A stretch of 64,000 nucleotides of DNA from Desulfovibrio desulfuricans DSM 642. Its GTDB lineage: Bacteria > Desulfobacterota > Desulfovibrionia > Desulfovibrionales > Desulfovibrionaceae. The stretch lies in NCBI RefSeq assembly GCF_000420465.1, contig NZ_ATUZ01000016.1, positions 62,001 to 126,000 on the forward strand. The letters run 5' to 3'. Position 1 is the stretch's first letter, and each line of letters starts with the position of its first letter. A program made the translations under genes and the position numbers. The notes below the pieces were generated by a model, which saw only the letters and a program-made list of their open reading frames with translations, had not been told where the DNA came from and made no database searches. Positions 29,762-34,584 of the stretch are shown here, piece after piece.

Positions 29762-32719
29762 ATGAACACAAGCAAGCCCTGCATCCACATCGAAAAGGCC
29801 CGCCAGCACAATCTCAAAAACATCAGCCTGGACATCCCCCGCGACGAGCTGGTGGTGATTTGCGGCCCGTCAGGTTCCGGCAAGTCAACGCTGGCGTTCG
29901 ATATCGTGTACGCCGAAGGCCAGCGCCGCTATGTGGAATCGCTGTCTGCCTACGCCCGCCAGTTTTTGCCCCAGATGGACAAGCCGGACGTGGAAAAGAT
30001 CGAGGGGCTTTCGCCCGCAATCTCGCTTGAACAGCAGAGCGTTTCGCGCAACCCGCGTTCAACCGTGGGAACGGTCACGGAAATTTACGACTTTTTGCGC
30101 GTATTTTTTGCCCGGCTTGGGCGCATGTATTGCCCCCAGTGCGGGCGGCCCATCGAGGCCCGCGCAGCAGATGAAATCATTGGCGATATCATGGCCCTGC
30201 CGCAGGGCACCAAGTTTATGGTCATGGCTCCGCTGGTGGAACTTCAGAAGGGCACGCACCAGGACAAGTTCAAAAAGCTCAAGGCCGAAGGCTTTGCCCG
30301 TGTGCGCGTCAACGGCGAGTTTTATACGCTGGACGATGTGCCCACGCTGGACAAGAACAAGAAGCACTCCATTGATCTGGTGGTTGACCGCCTGGTGAAC
30401 AAGGAGGGCATTCGGGGGCGTCTGGCGGATTCGGTTGAGCTGGCCCTGCGCTACGGGGAGGGCCGACTTGTGCTGCACGAGCCGGACAAAGCCGCCGCAG
30501 GGCAGGATGCAGACACAGTGCATTCCACCACCTCGGTATGCGCGCATTGCCGTATTTCTCTGCCCGCGCCCAGCCCGCAGCTGTTTTCGTTCAACGGGCC
30601 GCAGGGCGCCTGCCCGCGTTGCGTGGGCCTCGGCGGCGTGGATTATTTTGAGCCGCGCCTCATTGCGCCCAACATGGGCCTTTCGCTGAACACGGGCGCG
30701 CTGTTGCCCTGGGCCACGGACAAAATGTTCAGCCGCTATGAGGACTCCCTCAAGGCTCTGGGCAAGCGCTTCAAATTTCAGCTTTCCACGCCGCTGGAGC
30801 AGTTTAGTGAAGATGCGCTTTCCGCTCTTTTTTACGGAGAGGATGAACAGGGCCGCCCAGCGCGCGCCTCGTTGGGCCTGCGCCGCAACTGGATGGGCGG
30901 CAGCGTTGCCCTTGGTGCTGGCGGCGATTATCAGAGCGAGCATTTTTCTGACGCACTGCGTGCGCAGGGGCAGGTGGGCGTGAGCGAAAAACGCTGGCCC
31001 GGCGTTATTCCTCTGCTTGAAAGCGGTATGCAGTACGGCGATGCCTGGCGCGAGGCCCTGTCTCGTTATCGGCAGACCATGGACTGCCCGGACTGCCACG
31101 GAGCACGGCTGAACACCAACGCGCTTTCCGTGCGGGTGGACGATCTGAATATCGCGCAGTTCTGCAACCTTTCGGTTGAGCGCGCGCTGGAATGGCTGGA
31201 AAAACGCGAATTTACAGGGCGGCATGTTGTCATTGCCGAACCACTCATGAAGGAACTGACCCACCGCCTGTCGTTTATGCGCAGCGTGGGGCTTGAGTAT
31301 CTTTCGCTGGGGCGCTCCATGTCCACGCTTTCGGGCGGCGAGGCCCAGCGCATCCGTCTGGCATCGCAGCTCGGCTCGGGCCTTGTGGGCGTTACCTACG
31401 TGCTGGACGAACCCTCCATCGGTTTGCATCCGCGTGATAACGAGCGGCTGCTGGGAACCCTGCGTTCACTCCAGGCGCGCGGCAATACCGTGCTCGTGGT
31501 GGAGCATGACGAGGCCACCATCTGCGCGGCGGATACGGTCATTGAGCTTGGCCCCGGCTCCGGTTCACAGGGCGGCGAAATCATGTTTCAGGGGCGGGTG
31601 GACGACCTGCTCGGCAAGGCGGATACCCTCACGGCCCGTTACCTGCGTGGCGATGACGTGATCGCCCTGCCGGACGAGCGGCGCGAAGGGCAGGGGGCGC
31701 TGGTCATGCACGGCATCACCACCAACAATCTGCGCGATATTGATTGCCGCATTCCTCTGGGCGTGCTCACCTGCGTGACCGGGGTTTCCGGCTCCGGCAA
31801 GAGTTCGCTGGTGGTGGATACGCTCTACAAGCATGTGGCCCTCAACCTTGGCCTGCGCGTGGATCAGCCCGGCACCATCGGCGGGCTGGAATACGAAAAA
31901 GGCTCCGCGCCTGTGGAGCGCATAGTGGCCATTGACCAGACCCCCATTGGACGTACGCCGCGTTCCAATCCCGCCACCTACACCAAGATTTTTGACGAGA
32001 TTCGCAATATTTTTGCCATGACGCAGGACGCCCGCAAACGCGGCTACAAGCCGGGGCGTTTCAGCTTTAACGTGCGCGGGGGCCGTTGCGAGGCCTGCGG
32101 CGGCGACGGGCAGATTCGTGTTGAAATGCACTTTTTGCCCGATGTGTATGTGACTTGCGACGTGTGCAAGGGCAAGCGCTATAACCACGAAACCCTTGAA
32201 GTGCGCTACAAGGGGCTGAACATCGCCGAGGTGCTCGACCTGACCGTGCATCAGGCCCGCCAGCTCTTTGAAAACTATCCCTCGCTGGAGCGCCGCCTTG
32301 CCGTGCTGGAAGAGGTGGGGCTGGAATATCTGCGGCTGGGGCAGCCCGCCACAACGCTTTCGGGCGGCGAAGCCCAGCGCATCAAGATTTCGCGCGAGCT
32401 GGGCAAGCGGTCCCTGCCGGGAACCATGTACATTCTTGACGAGCCAACCACGGGCCTGCACATGCACGAGGTGGGCAAGCTCATCAAGGTGCTGCATGCG
32501 CTGGTGGACAGGGGAGCAAGCGTGGTGGTTATCGAGCACAATACAGACATGATTCTGGCATCCGACCATGTGCTGGATATGGGCCCCGGCGGCGGAGAAA
32601 ACGGCGGGCAGATAGTCTCTGCCGGAACGCCCGAGGCCATAGTGGCCGACCCCAATTCCGTCACCGGGCGCTTCCTCATGCAGGAGCGGCTGGACAGGCT
32701 CAAGCGCAGACGGGAATAA
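29762..32719 (+). CDS. uvrA: Excinuclease ABC subunit A
   Basis: A 985-residue UvrA, the DNA-damage-recognition ATPase of nucleotide excision repair. The first Walker A is GPSGSGKST (residues 35-43), with the first zinc module around YCPQCG and the CAHC/CPRC pair. The first ABC signature is [14 protein letters not shown] with LDEPSIGLH. The second half has Walker [10 protein letters not shown], zinc finger CEACGG...CDVCKG, signature [12 protein letters not shown] and LDEPTTGLH. All ATPase elements look intact. The start at 29762 fits the family N-terminus ([13 protein letters not shown]). The SD is weak and the frame is open further upstream, so the start is the least certain point. Confidence 0.96.
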
Positions 32720-32782
32720 CATCCTCAAATAAAATAAACTGTCAGACTGCCGTAATGCCCTGTTGCATGACGGCCTTGTTGG

Positions 32783-32813
32783 GCGCATCCGGTTTACCGG
32801 ATGCGCTTTTTTT
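32783..32813 (+). terminator. uvrA terminator
   Basis: Perfect 10-bp stem GCGCATCCGG / CCGGATGCGC with a 4-base loop and seven T. Confidence 0.92.
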
Positions 32814-32865
32814 GTCAGCCATCCCGGGAGTGAGTGAATGGATCGGGTCATATGTTCGTTCAGAA

Positions 32866-32917
32866 TTTTTGTTGACATGGAAACAATTTTTTACGATTGT
32901 TTCCATGTCAACAAAAA
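32866..32917 (+). promoter_or_regulatory. Perfect 22-bp inverted repeat at marR promoter/leader
   Basis: Two exactly complementary 22-bp arms (32866-32887 and 32896-32917) are separated by 8 bp. Each arm contains TTGACA read outward to inward: plus strand at 32872-32877, minus strand at 32911-32906. The right arm ends directly at the SD (AAAGGAG, 32916 on) of the MarR gene starting at 32927. It fits an operator for the adjacent MarR dimer, and in RNA it would form a hairpin that abuts the ribosome site. Confidence 0.85.
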
Positions 32918-32926
32918 GGAGCAGTC

Positions 32927-33400
32927 ATGAATCAGCCTCACAGGATTGTAGCCGAGCTCATCAAAATTTCTGAGCATGCCGATGCCTTCAGGCATGGGAG
33001 AGAAGACTTTTTTGATGACCTGAACCTCACGGAGGTTCATTGCATCCATTGGATAGGAACTCTTGATCATGCCAATGTGACAAAGGTTTCTAACGAGATG
33101 GGCATGACGCGTGGGGCCATAAGTAAAATATGCAAAAAGCTGCTGAAAAAAAACTTTATCGAAAGTTATCAGGAACCGGAAAATAACAAAAATATCTATT
33201 TCAGGGTTGCAGATGGCGGGAAAAAAATATTTGAAGCCCACAAAATCAACCATGACAAGACATTTGGTGAAAAGGTCTGCATCGTAGATAAATATGATGA
33301 AGATGAACAGGCGATAATACTGCGTTTCCTCATGGATATTAACGCATTTGTTGAACGCGGTTTTGAACAGATTTACACAAATTGCGAGAAAGATGAATAA
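32927..33400 (+). CDS. MarR-family transcriptional regulator
   Basis: A 157-residue winged-helix regulator of the MarR family. The DNA-binding part covers about residues 40-100: VTKVSNEMGMTRGAISKICKKL is the recognition helix region, followed by a wing around EPENNKNIYFRV. The flanking helices for dimerisation are predicted at both ends. AAAGGAG lies before the ATG at 32927. It probably represses its own operon through the 22-bp inverted repeat just upstream. Its stop overlaps the first possible MFS start (TAATG). Codon usage is AT-rich (many AAA, AAT, ATA), unlike neighbouring genes, which suggests acquisition by transfer. The effector is unknown. Confidence 0.88.
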   Translation: MNQPHRIVAELIKISEHADAFRHGREDFFDDLNLTEVHCIHWIGTLDHANVTKVSNEMGMTRGAISKICKKLLKKNFIESYQEPENNKNIYFRVADGGKKIFEAHKINHDKTFGEKVCIVDKYDEDEQAIILRFLMDINAFVERGFEQIYTNCEKDE

Positions 33401-34584
33401 TGGAGAATACTATAATGAATTCAGCAACAGTCAGAAAAGGCGTTGTGTATTCCATATCGTTCGCGCATATGCTGAATGACTGGTATATGAATATTATTCC
33501 TATACTTACGCCATTTCTCATTGCGGCTGGTTTTGGTATTGGGGAGGTTTCGTTTGCCATTTCCGCCTTTACCATTACCTCATCGCTTTCGCAGCCGCTT
33601 ATTGGCTATATGGTGGACAGAAAAAACCAGAGCTGGATGATATATGTGGGCACGGCCTGGCTGGCGATACTGCTGAGCTGCATAGGTCTGACCCACAGCT
33701 CCACCATGCTGATTGCGCTTGCGGCCCTTGCCGGTCTTGGAGCTGCGGCTTTTCATCCGCAGGCATCGGCTATGGTTAGTGCCGCGAGCGGGCAGAAAAA
33801 GGGGATGTATCAGGCCGTTTTTGGTGCTTCGGGGAATCTTGGCTGGGCGCTGACTCCCCTGTTTGTCATCCCGCTGGTGGAACGGTTTGGCCTGAGCGTC
33901 ACGCCCTACTTTGTGGTGCCGGGCATTATTGTTACGATATTATTGGCCTTCAAGGCTCAGAAAACCCCCGCAAGATCGCAGGCAGAAACAGTGCCGATGA
34001 TGGAGACCCTGCGCCCCGCCTGGAAAGAGCTGAGCAAGCTGGTGCTGATTATTGCTGTCCGCACACTGACCTATTCCGGCCTTGTGGCCTTTCTTCCTCT
34101 GTACCTGCAACAGCAGGGCATGAGCTTGTCCGTCTGCTCCCACTTGCTGTTTATTCTGCTGCTTTCTGGCGCAGCAGGCGGCATAGCGGGCGGTTATCTT
34201 TCAGACAGGTTCGGTAAAACCATTGTTATTTTCTTGTCCCTGGCCCTCTCCCCCATTTTTTTCTACCTCTTTCTGCATGTTGGCGCAGGCCTGCAACCTG
34301 TAGTGTTTGCCCTGGCCGGGGCGACGCTTCTTTCGTCCTTCTCGCCCATTGTGGTGCTGGCGCAAGAGCTGCTTTTCCGGCAGGCCGCAATGGCCTCAGG
34401 ATTTTCACTGGGATTTGGCATCGGCATTGGTGGACTTGGCGTTGGCCTTGTTGGGCTTGTCATCCAGTATGCAGGTCTTGCCCTTGCCATCAATATGCTG
34501 ATCTGCCTGCCCTTTGTCGCTGCCTGCATAGCCCTGACGCTGAAAGGCCGCAAAGCATTGGAGCAGGCGGGGTTTGCACCGTAG
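33400..34584 (+). CDS. MFS transporter, fosmidomycin-resistance (Fsr)-like
   Basis: A 394-residue major facilitator protein with twelve predicted helices. The N-terminal AHMLNDWYMNIIPILTPFL and the GYMVDRKNQSW loop between helices 2 and 3 resemble the Fsr subfamily of drug:proton antiporters. AAFHPQASAMVS is also typical of Fsr. Downstream, GGYLSDRFGKT is the second-half loop. Translation may start at 33400, overlapping the regulator stop, or at the ATG 33415 with GGAGA upstream. It is coexpressed with the MarR gene, so an inducible efflux pump is likely. The substrate is unknown. Confidence 0.87.
   Translation: MENTIMNSATVRKGVVYSISFAHMLNDWYMNIIPILTPFLIAAGFGIGEVSFAISAFTITSSLSQPLIGYMVDRKNQSWMIYVGTAWLAILLSCIGLTHSSTMLIALAALAGLGAAAFHPQASAMVSAASGQKKGMYQAVFGASGNLGWALTPLFVIPLVERFGLSVTPYFVVPGIIVTILLAFKAQKTPARSQAETVPMMETLRPAWKELSKLVLIIAVRTLTYSGLVAFLPLYLQQQGMSLSVCSHLLFILLLSGAAGGIAGGYLSDRFGKTIVIFLSLALSPIFFYLFLHVGAGLQPVVFALAGATLLSSFSPIVVLAQELLFRQAAMASGFSLGFGIGIGGLGVGLVGLVIQYAGLALAINMLICLPFVAACIALTLKGRKALEQAGFAP

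Follow-up and report, generated by a model that had tools for sequence, protein, structure and literature searches.

Among repressors of the MarR family, ZitR is described as binding two imperfect palindromes that lie over the -35 and -10 elements of its own promoter (PMC6372160), and CouR is described as a repressor whose inverted-repeat boxes lie over predicted -35 hexamers of the form TTGAcA (PMC4737184). Template switching at short inverted repeats, in turn, is reported to copy one arm of such a repeat into the other (PMC8794818, PMC8604942). In this study, we analyzed a perfect inverted repeat in front of a marR gene of Desulfovibrio desulfuricans, located in a window of 64,000 nucleotides (the whole stretch of DNA that was analyzed; positions are counted from its first letter). 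Comparison with related loci makes it likely that this repeat functions at the DNA level, as an operator for two MarR dimers over a single promoter that would serve marR and the MFS transporter gene behind it, in which box 2 mirrors box 1 exactly and the two arms change together.

Results

Geometry and rarity of the inverted repeat

The repeat consists of two arms of 22 nt (arm 1, 32866-32887; arm 2, 32896-32917) that are 100% complementary and separated by an 8-nt spacer, TTTTTACG (32888-32895), and TTGACA is present in both arms. The original prediction had described exactly these arms, this spacer length and one TTGACA per arm, all of which we could confirm in the sequence; it had also placed the repeat in contact with the ribosome site, and GGAG indeed follows directly after arm 2. 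Both arms were kept in all five genus orthologs of the locus, and the spacer was fixed in length and variable in sequence.

When perfect inverted repeats with loops of 0-30 nt were collected from the window, the 22-bp arm was the longest, followed by arms of 17, 16, 15 and 15 bp, and the maximum arm in ten Markov-1 simulations of the 64-kb window was 12 bp. The repeat is not due to chance. Its length is rare in its own genome, not unique: 400 kb of another contig of this 3.39-Mb genome contained 21 perfect repeats with arms of at least 14 bp and loops of 3-20, two of which had arms of at least 20 bp and GC contents of 0.58 and 0.60, both GC-richer than the marR repeat. One of these two, a perfect 26-bp inverted repeat on contig C11 (L068:14253-14309) with a 5-bp loop and a T-rich tail, is probably a terminator, and the other (20 bp) is without a T-run. 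Contig C11 also holds an AT-rich perfect 16-bp inverted repeat with a 10-bp loop, directly after a tRNA-like 3' end (L075:17355-17396). For the 22-bp repeat itself, a terminator was considered and rejected, as the repeat is AT-rich, no T-run follows either arm, and a terminator of uvrA is already present upstream.

The marR locus and its genus orthologs

The uvrA frame ends at 32719 and is followed by an intrinsic terminator (32781-32813, + strand), which separates uvrA from marR. The marR gene (32927-33400, + strand) encodes 157 aa with the helix MTRGAISK, and its membership in the MarR family is based on a winged-helix domain above the Pfam cut-off (PF01047, 41.6 bits against 24.6). It is preceded by a Shine-Dalgarno-like AGGAG (32917-32921, + strand), whose first base lies in arm 2 and whose GGAG is kept in five of five orthologs. 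The MFS transporter gene (33415-34584, + strand; PF07690, 118.7 bits) comes next, with an in-frame ATG also at 33400.

The five genus orthologs are those of the window genome (G000) and of G074, G052, G042 and G013; the MarR proteins of the latter four are 96%, 96%, 81% and 81% identical to that of the window, respectively. All five loci have perfect 22-bp arms, an 8-bp spacer and an arm 1 that starts at position -61 from the start codon, and in all five marR is followed by the MFS gene, the frame of which is cut short in G013. A strict pattern of the double arm matched the same five orthologs among 288 family genomes, and a relaxed two-box pattern matched six of the 288. The recognition helix (residues 57-73) and the wing (residues 78-95) of MarR are identical in all five proteins.

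A predicted structure of MarR, built on the five orthologous proteins, was of low quality (mean pLDDT 62.5). The best PDB match of the window MarR was FabT (6jbx, E 3e-8), and chains of ZitR and AdcR were among the best matches. The FabT model of NCBIfam (NF050133) gave the best NCBIfam score, 56.9 bits, which is far below its cut-off of 200 bits, and the model of the AdcR/ZitR zinc family (NF038251) gave 54.1 bits, also far below its cut-off of 175 bits. Three histidines of the window MarR, H38, H105 and H109 (window 33038-33253), are kept in all five genus orthologs and align with H42, H108 and H112 of AdcR, which we take to be zinc-site residues in both numbering and role; FabT has histidines in the same columns. 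A metal is a possible ligand for the window MarR.

Two boxes inside the arms

Each arm contains one 18-bp box of MarR type, which is a weaker palindrome in itself. Such a weaker palindrome is the usual form of the site for one MarR dimer, and thus the repeat should be read as two boxes and not as one 52-bp site. Box 1, TTGTTGACATGGAAACAA (32869-32886, + strand), is symmetric at 14 of its 18 positions, and similar boxes are found beside other MarR genes with the MTRG helix; box 2, its mirror copy (32897-32914, - strand), is 28 bp away from centre to centre. It had been predicted that the repeat is much longer than a usual MarR site and may bind two dimers. The length is real, but its excess is accounted for by the presence of two sites, and the binding of two dimers is supported by the sequence, in that each arm has one box and paired boxes accompany the same recognition helix in other genes.

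To score boxes, we used a scale with a maximum of 16 on which two letters were allowed at two positions per half. We examined 300 bp upstream of each of 52 MarR homologues, with 200 simulations per upstream region for p-values. Two boxes with at least 15 of 16 were present in eight of the 52, namely the five orthologs and three further genes of the same genus (group 2: G021, G055 and G026), whose proteins are ~25-28% identical over the aligned part. All eight share the helix MTRG[AG][IV]SK, and the best upstream box of the other 44 homologues scored at most 13.

Six additional genes were collected blind to the boxes: a DNA pattern that represented only the helix led to a MarR gene in another genus (G257), and five orthologs from four genera (G252, G250, G212, G345 and G293) were found by protein similarity. 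In five of these six genes both boxes scored 15 or 16; the exception was G345 (15 and 13), whose second box does not exceed the highest-scoring chance boxes in the survey. All five orthologs found by protein similarity carry the helix and a good box. Overall, the helix MTRG[AG][IVM]SK occurred in 14 MarR genes, 13 of which have two boxes of 15 or 16, with centre-to-centre spacings across the 14 operators of 26, 28, 29, 30, 31 or 36 bp. Because these genes are related, they appear to represent a strong pattern rather than 14 independent events. The DNA pattern for the helix matched 11 places in 10 of 395 sampled genomes of the phylum; seven of these places were MarR genes with two boxes, and four were non-MarR frames without boxes.

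With regard to gene context, an MFS gene follows marR in G250, G252, G257 and G212; it is 50-52% identical to that of the window in the three compared, and the one in G212 was judged by look. In G345 and G293 (L135 and L140) this place is taken by a gene that we presume to be molybdopterin oxidoreductase-like. The marR genes of group 2 (L018, L094 and L095) are divergent from a 196-aa gene, which in G021 belongs to the cyclase family PF04199, and on its marR side the G021 locus has a frame that looks uvrA-like, ~1.5 kb away from the boxes. An ortholog of group 2 in G059 (L117), which was excluded from the 14 genes, has the helix MPRGGISK and not MTRGGISK; inspection by eye of its 190 bp upstream revealed neither boxes nor a cyclase-like leftward frame, and it is possibly a natural case of site loss.

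We also searched for further sites of the same kind. When the own genome was scanned for single boxes, allowing up to three mismatches, 23 matches were obtained, including the two arms (12 forward and 11 reverse), versus 21 for the control (9 and 12), and near-perfect symmetric boxes with at most one mismatch occurred at 10 places in nine of 79 genomes of the genus versus eight for a reversed control pattern. Three of these 10 places adjoin a MarR homologue, in G021, G055 and G026. As neither scan exceeded its control, the box gains no independent support from a regulon in the own genome or the genus.

Predicted promoter and transcription start

The predicted promoter of marR lies inside the repeat. 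Its -35 element, TTGACA (32872-32877, + strand), is a consensus match only and is situated within box 1, in the half facing away from box 2; the predicted -10 element, GATTGT (32895-32900, + strand), is spaced 17 bp from it and overlaps arm 2. In all five genus orthologs this pair, TTGACA-17-GATTGT (TTGACG-17-TATTGT in G042), was the best forward match to a promoter weight matrix that is not calibrated to the promoter rules of this organism. A stricter consensus scan of the region found no promoter, since GATTGT is a weak -10 that matches three of six positions. Given that the conserved match is located inside the repeat, the marR mRNA should start near 32906, within arm 2, and contain only the end of that arm. 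Moreover, the gap between arm 1 and the T-run of the uvrA terminator, as located by eye, is only about a dozen bases in G013, which leaves little room for another promoter.

Related operators have comparable elements at the same place of the box: TTTACA-17-TAnnnn in G257, G252, G250 and G212, with weak -10s that match little beyond TA, and TTGACT-17-AATTAT in G293. In G345, TTGACA is accompanied by AAAATG at 17 bp, and therefore the spacing would have to be 16 (TAAAAT). All three operators of group 2 have a leftward TTGACn-17-TAnnTT, which faces the divergent cyclase-family gene.

On the opposite strand, the mirror image of the marR elements provides a possible leftward promoter with TTGACA (32906-32911, - strand) and AATTGT (32883-32888, - strand). 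The pattern TTGACA-17-nATTGT is found on both strands in four of five orthologs, and TTGACG-17-nATTGT in the fifth, so that the repeat carries promoter-like elements in both directions, all being consensus matches only. Two reverse-strand pairs compete in the scores: a 15-bp-spaced TTGACA/AAAATT in G000 scored slightly above the mirror pair, and TTGAAA-18-AAAAAT in G074 outscored the forward promoter. Leftward initiation from the repeat is possible. The suggestion of outward-facing promoters is thus half borne out: TTGACA-17 pairs point both ways, each with its -10-like partner at the edge of the opposite arm, yet an evident gene to be served is present on the right only.

Mirror identity of the arms

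When box 1 was compared with the mirrored box 2, the five genus orthologs had no mismatch, with arms identical at 22 of 22 positions, whereas each of the nine other two-box operators had 3-6 mismatches in 18. Given these mismatches and the range of centre spacings among the 14 operators, mirror images do not seem to be a requirement for the recognition of two separate boxes. Within the genus the two central bases of the box vary, being AT in G000, G074 and G052, GC in G042 and AA in G013; in the last, the AA centre breaks the symmetry within the box and leaves the symmetry between the arms intact. The arms are near each other, joined by a short spacer, identical and changing together through three centre states, as would be anticipated for arms subject to template switching. 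If the arms changed independently, the chance that arm 2 repeats the pattern of arm 1 at the two central positions would be 4.6e-4 to 9.3e-4, under a simple star-tree model that uses fourfold-site rates and assumes three lineages descending from an ancestor already mirrored.

A direction of change is suggested by the six orthologs from other genera. Their box 1 begins TTGTTGAC or TTGTTTAC, and their box 2 ends GGAAACAA, GGAATCAA or AGAAACAA in six of six, never GTCAACAA; the mirrored TTGAC of arm 2 accordingly seems to be a derived state, such as a reverse copying of arm 1 into arm 2 would produce. Within the genus, however, box 2 of the more distant group 2 operators also ends GTCAACAA in three of three, where a real leftward gene can be served, and hence the GTCAACAA of arm 2 could have another origin.

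Discussion

The proposed two-dimer operator

We infer the following sequence of events from the comparison of these loci. The outer half of box 1 contains the predicted -35 element, and the predicted -10 element lies at the inner edge of box 2; MarR dimers bound to the two boxes would thus shut out RNA polymerase. MarR would thereby repress its own gene and the transporter gene until a ligand releases it. In the lineage of the five species, box 2 would have become an exact mirror of box 1. As the mirrored stretch takes in the TTGAC of the -35, a possible leftward promoter that has no evident target would have been created as well. Arm-to-arm copying, by template switching at a quasi-palindrome, and not selection, would then keep the mirror.

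Alternative explanations

The original prediction had included a hairpin in the mRNA that ends at the Shine-Dalgarno sequence. Such a hairpin in the marR leader would control translation or mRNA stability, and the changes in the arms would be compensatory. The region 32850-32950 does fold at -37 kcal/mol (z -6.66), the arms co-vary in the five orthologs, and GGAG is located directly 3' of the stem. However, the best conserved promoter match places the start inside the repeat, so that of the two arms only the last part of arm 2 would be transcribed into the leader, and folding of a leader that begins at about 32906 revealed nothing unusual (z +0.58). The terminator of uvrA in G013, whose T-run by eye is only about a dozen bases away, and the boxes of orthologs from other genera, which are not mirror images of each other, also speak against an RNA stem. 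In addition, the 110 arm pairs do not include a single G-U pair, while one such pair is present nearby, in the uvrA terminator of G042, and an Rfam search of 32600-33100 with E values up to 1 returned 15 weak matches, none at the gathering score and 13 of them to microRNA models. We therefore regard control by a leader hairpin as very unlikely and did not retain this part of the prediction.

Several processes may maintain the exact mirror in the proposed two-dimer operator. We tentatively suggest, and with more doubt than confidence, that a replication template switch in the ancestor of the five species may have copied box 1 with its -35 into box 2, giving a two-way promoter, and that the same process has since kept the arms identical; the basis for copying is three distinct arm states in five genomes. 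One could argue that selection preserves a symmetric bidirectional promoter and operator, in which leftward and rightward transcripts both matter, since TTGAC[AG]-17-nATTGT is found on both strands in five of five orthologs and a divergent cyclase-family gene is faced by the predicted leftward promoter of group 2 (n=3), whose layout is the same. But in four of five orthologs nothing other than the 3' end of uvrA with its terminator lies leftward of the repeat (the contig of G052 ends 176 bp upstream), and it would be left unexplained why the base that follows the -35, which is T, C or A, changes jointly with its mirror base. Such selection is therefore improbable, although a serious alternative. 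We consider it equally unlikely that the repressor reads the central bases, directly or via DNA shape, and that the protein of each species selects the same centre in both boxes. It is true that both boxes are sites of one protein, that AT and GC centres are self-complementary and look mirrored by themselves, and that two of the nine other operators have equivalent centres (AA/AA in G257, direct; TT/AA in G293, mirrored), so that some preference for the centre may exist. Nevertheless, the centres differ in the remaining seven whichever way they are read, and the AA of G013, which is not self-complementary, required the right one of two orientations to be mirrored. A changed specificity is also an unlikely cause of the centre changes because the DNA-reading parts, residues 57-73 and 78-95, are identical in the five proteins.

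Implications and comparison with known systems

If the proposed operator is correct, paired changes in a conserved inverted repeat would by themselves be no evidence of an RNA stem: here, a DNA operator without such a stem would show the paired substitutions that are usually taken as proof of RNA structure. The locus would be a candidate case of covariation that arises in DNA only, for which the related, unmirrored operators could serve as natural controls, and the repeat might offer a small site for assays of template switching within a promoter. Furthermore, the link between the helix MTRG[AG][IVM]SK and a box of approximately TTGTTKMCnnGKMAACAA suggests that the protein may allow prediction of the operators in this MarR group.

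Among the matches listed in the open-licence literature, none dealt with a mirror-identical MarR operator or with arm-to-arm copying in operators. The mutation described at template-switch hairpins shares with the present case a reverse-complement copying that changes several bases at once and keeps arms identical; the parts of those reports that describe it concern RNA genes and coding repeats of yeast, whereas the repeat studied here is probably a DNA operator, and its RNA should lack both arms together (PMC8794818, PMC8604942). Bidirectional promoters are similar in having pseudo-symmetric DNA that could engage RNA polymerase either way, but as presented in the relevant section of that source they share a symmetric -10, while the symmetry in the window is that of two putative repressor boxes with -35 and -10 in separate arms (PMC12825309). 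FabT, the best PDB match, differs in that the window marR adjoins a transporter gene and not genes of fatty-acid synthesis. The CouR operator, in the portion of the article devoted to it, has one inverted repeat with shorter arms between divergent promoters, compared with two boxes over one promoter here (PMC4737184). The closest match is the zit (adc) operator of ZitR/AdcR in Lactococcus and Streptococcus, in which a dimeric MarR-type repressor likewise has two palindromes over its own promoter; its box, TTAACYRGTTAA, is unlike that of the window, and the text describing that operator makes no mention of mirror identity between its two boxes (PMC6372160). The sequence around marR has the same layout, with two box-like palindromes over the TTGACA/GATTGT of the regulator's own operon. 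Thus, judged from the sequences compared, the two-box autorepressor architecture appears to be ordinary, and the exact, co-changing mirror, which the five species share and which is absent from all nine other operators, appears to be an uncommon twist on it.
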